Part shown: one piece after another, positions 26,691-27,661 of the stretch | How positions within the stretch are numbered: position 1 is the first letter of the stretch | Layout: the number at the start of each line of letters is the position of its first letter | Assembly (NCBI GenBank): GCA_016190205.1 | Contig: JACPQZ010000043.1 | Location: 1-36,918, forward strand | DNA length: 36,918 nucleotides | DNA from: Candidatus Omnitrophota bacterium | GTDB taxonomy: Bacteria > Omnitrophota > JACPQZ01 | Direction of reading: 5' to 3' | Translations under genes and position numbers: made by a program | Notes under the pieces: generated by a model | Told to the model about the DNA's origin: nothing | Seen by the model: the letters and a program-made list of their open reading frames with translations, nothing else | The model's database searches: none

Positions 26691-27029
26691 CTAGAGCGTC
26701 TCGCACGGCGCGTCTCCCCACAGGTTTTCGAGCTGGTAATAATCCCGGGTGGTAGTATGAAAAATGTGCGCGATGACATCCCCACAATCGATCAGAACCC
26801 ACCCGCCCCTCTCGCTGCCCTCGCGCCGGGGGCGCCTCAATTTCTTTGCCCTGAAATCCTGAACAACCTGATCGGTGATGGCTCGAAGCTGGGGGGCGGA
26901 ATCTCCGCTCGCCAGGACGAAGTAATCCGTAAAATTGGCCAGGCGGCGGAGATCTAATATCTTGATGTCATGCGCCTTGCGCGCGCTCGCCGCTTGAGCG
27001 ATCAAGCGGGCCTTGGCAAGCGTGTTGAT
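26691..27029 (-). CDS. rsfS: Ribosomal silencing factor RsfS (Iojap/YbeB), probable ATC start
   Basis: Binds L14 and blocks 30S-50S joining when nutrients are scarce. KAHDIKILDLRRLANFTDYFVLASG and HTTTRDYYQLENLWGDA are the family signatures. The open frame reaches 27092, but its 5' part is a perfect hairpin and a GGAGGAGGA ribosome site (27039-27047). In-frame with the homologous part, the codon 9 nt beyond that site is ATC (27027-27029) and aligns with the usual initiator Met. The only upstream in-frame GTG (27053) lies inside the hairpin. nadD, the usual neighbour, lies about 2.8 kb upstream. Confidence 0.9.
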   Translation of the reverse strand: MNTLAKARLIAQAASARKAHDIKILDLRRLANFTDYFVLASGDSAPQLRAITDQVVQDFRAKKLRRPRREGSERGGWVLIDCGDVIAHIFHTTTRDYYQLENLWGDAPCETL

Positions 27030-27045
27030 GTTCTGACATCCTCCT

Positions 27046-27088
27046 CCAGACACTCTGTCGTGTCTGGCAGACACGACAGAGTGTCTGG
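27046..27088 (-). other. Perfect 20-bp inverted repeat with 3-nt loop upstream of rsfS
   Basis: CCAGACACTCTGTCGTGTCT (27046-27065), GGC, then its exact reverse complement (27069-27088). It overlaps the ribosome-binding purines of rsfS by two bases. TGTCTGG recurs 21 nt apart, and CAGACAC also 21 nt apart, three times seven. On the minus strand no T-run follows. It could sequester the rsfS ribosome site or be a short heptad hairpin. Confidence 0.75.
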
Positions 27089-27096
27089 ACACAGAT

Positions 27097-27148
27097 AAAA
27101 AGGCATGCGGGCTGGCTCGGGGGCCCCGGCCGAAATCTCACGCATGCC
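27097..27148 (-). terminator. Intrinsic terminator after the DUF5679-like gene
   Basis: On the minus strand GGCATGCG (27141-27148) and CGCATGCC (27102-27109) form an 8-bp outer stem enclosing a GGGGCCCC-rich inner hairpin. TTTTT (27097-27101) follows. It separates the small zinc-ribbon gene from rsfS-argS. Confidence 0.8.
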
Positions 27149-27189
27149 TCTTAAATCAGATAGAGAACTCCTGATAGGATTCGAGATTG

Positions 27190-27236: not shown

Positions 27237-27383
27237 TTAGGAACCCGTTCCCAAGATGCGGTACAACCCGGTCCCACAAGTAGGGCATTTGCCCTTGACC
27301 GCCTTCCTTCCGTTCTTCATCGTAACTTCTTGGGCTTCCTTTATTTCTGTCTTTTTCTTGCACTTAACGCAATAGGCCTGCAA
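27237..27383 (-). CDS. Small zinc-ribbon protein, DUF5679-like
   Basis: A 48-residue protein reading LQAYCVKCKKKTEIKEAQEV then TMKNGRKAVKGKCPTCGTGL. Two CxxC knuckles (YCVKCK and CPTCGT) flank the TMKNGRKA core, the pattern I associate with DUF5679. Function is unknown. Start is TTG at 27383, with AGGGGGGTGA 6 nt upstream, a very strong ribosome site; stop is TAA. A promoter candidate lies at 27437-27466 and a terminator at 27097-27148, so it looks monocistronic. The non-ATG start and short length make it easy to miss. Confidence 0.85.
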   Translation of the reverse strand: MQAYCVKCKKKTEIKEAQEVTMKNGRKAVKGKCPTCGTGLYRILGTGS

Positions 27384-27490: not shown

Positions 27491-27661
27491 GTCCGTCGCT
27501 CGTCGCTAGGGACTGGTCGCTAGCAAACAAAAACTTCGTCGGTCGTTAGTGGCGGGTTTCCTGTTACCAGCGAAGAGCGACTGCTTTTTTGCTAGCGACC
27601 AGCGACTAGCGTTGCTATTTACTGTTTCTTGCTAGCGACCAGCGACCAGCAACTAGCGTGT
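27491..27661. repeat. Inverted heptad arrays between the second CorC-like gene and the DUF5679-like gene
   Basis: GTCCGTC, GCTCGTC, GCTAGGG, ACTGGTC, GCTAGCA (27491-27525) is the reverse complement, 20 of 23 over 27504-27526, of GCTAGCG, ACCAGCG, ACTAGCG (27589-27611). A second copy of the latter, GCTAGCG, ACCAGCG, ACCAGCA, ACTAGCG, is at 27631-27658 and ends 3 nt before the stop codon of the upstream gene. The two halves can form a 23-nt stem. Confidence 0.88.

Follow-up and report, generated by a model that had tools for sequence, protein, structure and literature searches.

The rsfS gene of the window (the entire 36,918-nucleotide stretch of Candidatus Omnitrophota DNA analysed here) very likely starts with AUC, a codon that bacteria almost never use for initiation. 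It would join infC among the genes kept on start codons against which IF3 discriminates, and would itself be repressed by IF3. To our knowledge, few bacterial genes occupy such start codons, and their discovery has mostly proceeded species by species. For rsfS, the sequences compared below turn what was a guess from a single genome into a pattern across relatives. In a literature search covering open-licence papers, we met no previous account of rsfS genes with rare starts.

A probable AUC start codon for rsfS

The rsfS coding sequence occupies 26691..27029 on the minus strand and, with the proposed AUC start, specifies 112 amino acids followed by a TAG stop. The protein read from 27029 is full length. 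It matches Pfam RsfS (PF02410) over positions 2–98 of 98 (105 bits, at 26718–27005) and the NCBIfam equivalog TIGR00090 over positions 2–99 of 99 (107 bits; cut-off 56.9). Judged by this full-length match above a curated cut-off, it is a member of the RsfS/YbeB/iojap family.

The proposed initiation codon, ATC at 27029–27027 on the minus strand, is in the rsfS frame and 8 codons before Pfam position 2. A Shine-Dalgarno (SD) sequence, GGAGGAGGA, can be read directly from the same strand at 27047–27039. It is separated from the ATC by the 9 nt spacer TGTCAGAAC (27038–27030, minus strand). The calculated pairing energy of the SD is −11.7 kcal/mol, and the 9 nt from the last paired base to the ATC make a rather long spacer. 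The earlier note on this DNA placed the end of GGAGGAGGA 9 nt before an in-frame ATC; its coordinates, spacing and frame were all right. It also stated that no ATG, GTG or TTG stands at proper spacing in the rsfS frame. The only such codons around the ATC are GTG 27092, 27074 and 27053, at least 8 codons upstream, and TTG 27005, 8 codons downstream. The three GTG codons have no SD and lie inside or adjoining a palindrome. Together with the comparison below, this arrangement makes it very probable that rsfS translation in the window begins at AUC 27029.

Rare codons occupy the homologous position in relatives

We compared 130 rsfS loci from the phylum of the window genome. Each was oriented and read, and codons were numbered from the Pfam RsfS domain; the window ATC is codon −8. 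Relatives of the window genome in the genome set belong to the same phylum only, with none from its genus or family, and a scan of named genomes for relatives of the window found nothing above 48% identity. Codon −8 is ATA in 29 of the 130 loci, ATC in 12, ATT in 5 and ACG in 4; a further 34 loci have ATG, GTG or TTG. One of the four rare codons is thus present in 50 loci, which supports the earlier suggestion that the ATC sits at the usual initiator position. The 46 AUA, AUC or AUU (AUH) codons compare with 6.2 expected from neighbouring positions, and the flanking columns contain 6 and 8. When a codon between −13 and −4 was drawn at random for each locus, the AUH count never exceeded 23 in 20,000 draws. 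AUH codons at −8 are present in 19 of 45 families and form the majority in 14.

Many of these loci offer little else to start with. From the last in-frame stop to the rare codon, 31 of the 50 rare-codon loci (ACG included) contain no ATG, GTG or TTG. For 16 of the 50, this remains so through Pfam position 6; a non-canonical start is therefore forced, unless initiation occurs inside the domain. An SD is present in 15 of these 16 loci, the exception being that of genome G179. The median SD energy across phylum rsfS loci is −7.1 kcal/mol for AUH codons, compared to −4.2 for canonical codons and −2.9 for in-gene control sites.

As read from these loci, a rare rsfS start is not obligatory in the phylum. 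The remaining 80 of the 130 loci have no rare codon at −8, and some lineages have TTG, GTG or ATG. Moreover, not every rare codon at −8 is a start; in G082, L346 and L353, for instance, it follows an ATG by only one or two codons. On a 62-column tree, the distribution of rare and canonical starts needs at least 11 changes, compared to 26.8 with shuffled labels; the well-supported branches force only 2, and resolution is too poor for a firm count of gains.

Similar starts were found in two further phyla. In Candidatus Tectomicrobia, GGAGG-type sequences precede an AUC or AUU in 12 of 18 rsfS loci; nine of these 12 have no ATG, GTG or TTG in the open frame. The leader of one, L317 (GAGGAGGATGCAGACCC-ATT), resembles that of the window (GGAGGAGGATGTCAGAAC-ATC), with the same 9 nt distance. 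In Nitrospirota, ATA occurs at −8 in 13 of the 30 best-scoring rsfS loci. In two of the 13, an ATG precedes the ATA by one or two codons, leaving about 11; eight of these have no canonical codon upstream. The boxed-in loci of both phyla have a strong SD at the same distance as in the window. Near-cognate starts (AUA, AUC or AUU, sometimes ACG) in many relatives from three phyla suggest a feature kept by selection and no local accident.

The rsfS gene of E. coli starts with UUG (PMC10917681), and our reading of the E. coli sequence confirmed this start, which is directed by AGGGGG. The same gene thus has a weak start there too, but UUG is a canonical minor start outside the AUH class. Taken together with the AUH codons of three phyla, this indicates that weak starts may be usual for rsfS, with AUH as the extreme form.

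The rare-start habit belongs to infC and rsfS

We next consider other genes of 30 genomes with a rare rsfS start. The infC start is non-AUG in 27 of the 28 readable cases (12 AUU, 10 AUC, 2 AUA and 3 ACG) and AUG in one; 26 of these starts were assigned by script and two (L243 and L247) were read by eye. In the window genome, infC has an AUU start behind AGAGGAGGT. Conversely, control genes have ordinary starts. In the same phylum genomes, all 28 of 28 frr genes and 24 of 25 smpB genes have a canonical codon in frame. Outside the phylum, 22 rare-start genomes were checked for frr, and each has a canonical start. The controls, consisting of these two genes and a thin HPF set, thus rule out a genome-wide habit of odd starts, with one smpB gene (L294, from G214) as a possible exception. 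Rare starts are a trait of infC and rsfS and do not characterise the genome at large, and the start-codon parallel with infC drawn in the earlier note holds.

The smpB gene L294 has no in-frame ATG, GTG or TTG upstream, and ATA stands where its congener G196 has ATG. Going by its sequence, it is possibly another rare start. SmpB was not found by Pfam search in the window genome, G072 (one contig), G137, G229 or G266, which could reflect real loss, divergence or incompleteness. One frr gene (L271, from G056) contains a single in-frame TAG within the ribosome recycling factor sequence. An ACG codon stands behind a strong SD at the initiator position of infC in G214, G196 and G038, and of rsfS in G300 and G355. 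In this phylum, ACG may be part of the codon set against which IF3 discriminates.

We also searched for S30AE/HPF (RaiA) genes. Eight were found in the 30 rare-start genomes, with none in the window genome or in 22 of the 30 relatives. The HPF genes that were read have an in-frame ATG or GTG near the domain, which argues, weakly given eight genes, against rare starts being a habit of hibernation factors. From these searches, the usual 70S-hibernation factor seems to be absent from the window genome. Since most rare-start genomes, that of the window included, have no detectable HPF/RaiA, they may depend for silencing mainly on RsfS.

A model for control of rsfS by IF3

IF3 acts on the 30S subunit as an anti-association factor. 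It makes initiation complexes unstable unless they stand on AUG, GUG or UUG, and represses its own gene, infC, and the GTC-started sigR gene of Streptomyces (PMC5472188). In S. aureus, expression from AUA and AUU starts is about 10% of that from AUG, rising to as much as 30% for ccpN in rich medium (PMC13009471). RsfS of other bacteria attaches to the 50S protein uL14 and blocks subunit joining (PMC7125091, PMC9503621). Both IF3 and RsfS are elevated in E. coli lacking RimM, for which a joint checkpoint was proposed (PMC13246957).

Hence, we propose the following. The ordinary initiator tRNA would decode AUC 27029 as the start of rsfS, under the direction of the strong SD. By rejecting initiation complexes on AUH codons, IF3 would hold RsfS synthesis low. 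Should free IF3 fall relative to 30S subunits, RsfS synthesis would increase, as for infC. Because IF3 on the 30S and RsfS on the 50S both hold ribosomal subunits apart, having starts of one type would link the quantities of the two proteins. We have considerable confidence in the full account, comprising an AUC start, repression by IF3 and an infC-like response. That the rsfS start is sensitive to IF3 is likely, by analogy with published work on other genes. Physiological coupling of the two factors is plausible, at about even odds. We give much the same even chance to the broader proposal that, in at least three phyla, a single translational switch keeps RsfS and IF3 in step, so that a shortage of IF3 against 30S subunits raises both.

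The rare start could be real and merely fix RsfS at a constant low level, with no useful sensing of IF3. The plain weak UUG of E. coli is consistent with this, as is the use of TTG or GTG at −8 by several lineages of the phylum, since low output may itself be selected. However, the codons chosen (AUA, AUC, AUU and ACG) are exactly the class that IF3 rejects, and are the same set used by infC in these genomes. Furthermore, rare codons are paired with stronger SDs than canonical starts, which would be needless for simple weak expression. We consider a constant low level possible but rather doubtful.

The infC gene, with its AUU, AUC or AUA start, resembles rsfS in combining a near-cognate codon with a strong SD at a position conserved over long distances. 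Both products are ribosomal anti-association factors, and both genes are rare-started in the same genomes. The two differ in that IF3 acts on its own mRNA, whereas control of rsfS would come from another protein, IF3. In addition, the infC start is nearly always rare in the phylum but the rsfS start only in some lineages, and infC has the stronger SDs (median −12.3 kcal/mol, compared to −7.1 for AUH rsfS). Expression of E. coli pcnB is lowered by a conserved AUU start with an extended SD. The S. aureus genes ccpN (AUA) and cvfC1 (AUU) have conserved, expression-lowering AUH starts with extended SDs (PMC13009471), as rsfS would have. The products of ccpN, cvfC1 and pcnB are unrelated, however, and conservation is narrower than for rsfS here. 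Streptomyces sigR likewise encodes a regulator other than IF3 and is kept on a non-canonical start, but the codon is GTC and not AUH, a single genus is involved and control by IF3 was shown experimentally (PMC5472188), whereas for rsfS such control is predicted.

If the model is true, a second translation factor with a rare start across phyla would make IF3-gated initiation a small regulon, reaching beyond the infC feedback loop. It would also connect the two anti-association factors, whose joint rise has been observed in E. coli (PMC13246957), in a direct way open to experiment. A practical consequence concerns annotation: rsfS is misplaced or truncated by gene callers in these phyla because callers allow only ATG, GTG and TTG.

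Other candidate start sites

The pattern of substitution marks a coding boundary. When loci of a family were compared in pairs, substitution rates were flat across the three codon positions for codons −14 to −9 (0.56, 0.53 and 0.58 at positions 1, 2 and 3) and codon-like for codons −7 to −1 (0.35, 0.21 and 0.55). This points to a start at codon −8. The constancy of codon −8 itself results from the way loci were selected and was left out of the argument.

This boundary bears on GTG 27053, with which the AUC would be an internal isoleucine codon. GTG is an accepted start codon and this one is in frame, 8 codons upstream. The earlier note, which offered it as the alternative, described it as inside a perfect hairpin, and it does lie (27053–27051) within a palindrome with perfect 22 bp arms (27045..27089, no strand assigned). 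The palindrome is a copy of a dispersed repeat; GTG 27074 is also inside it and GTG 27092 is three bases past its end. No SD precedes GTG 27053, and in relatives nothing upstream of the AUH codon is homologously conserved or coding. We saw no relative with a clear ATG at the position of this GTG. Initiation there is very improbable and the site was rejected.

Equally improbable is a start at TTG 27005, an internal codon bordering the RsfS domain, even though TTG is an accepted start and has AAGG 5 nt upstream. The seven codons from the AUH codon to the domain are under the codon-like constraint described above, so that coding sequence extends upstream of this TTG. Only 12 of the 130 loci have TTG at the homologous position, and the 16 boxed-in phylum loci have no ATG, GTG or TTG between stop and domain. 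An out-of-frame ATG at 27039–27037 (minus strand), missed in the earlier note, abuts the SD. It was rejected as a start, having no spacer and the wrong frame and being absent from the similar leaders L319 and L323. Loss of an ATG or a frame shift through assembly or sequencing error is barely credible: the genome is fragmented (76 contigs) and an out-of-frame ATG is nearby, but tens of independent genomes from three phyla share this rare-start layout.

Sequences upstream of rsfS

A short conserved zinc-ribbon-like gene lies upstream of rsfS at 27240..27383 on the minus strand, with a probable TTG start; we take it to be DUF5679-like. It adjoins rsfS across much of the phylum (tblastn matches in 78 loci). 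Among 80 named genome loci, it occurs only in L089 (Candidatus Omnitrophota), at 72% identity; judged by this distribution, the phylum compared here is probably Omnitrophota. Further upstream, between a CBS-domain gene and the small gene, GCTAGCGACCAGCGACTAGC is the unit of both direct and inverted repeats in the intergenic region 27497–27658.

A promoter scan upstream of rsfS in the window found nothing. Between the upstream gene and rsfS, folding revealed a terminator-like hairpin followed by TTTTTA (27098..27152, minus strand; arms 27098–27109 and 27141–27152). It was not listed by a terminator pattern scan because its loop exceeds the length that the scan allows.

The dispersed palindromic repeat at 27045–27089 has the form CCAGACAC...GTGTCTGG. 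Partial or full copies are present on six further contigs of the window genome (C27, C13, C59, C24, C67 and C36), and L306–L310 contain copies. Some copies vary yet retain pairing (CTCTGTC in the window, CGCTGTC in L306), like REP- or MITE-like elements.
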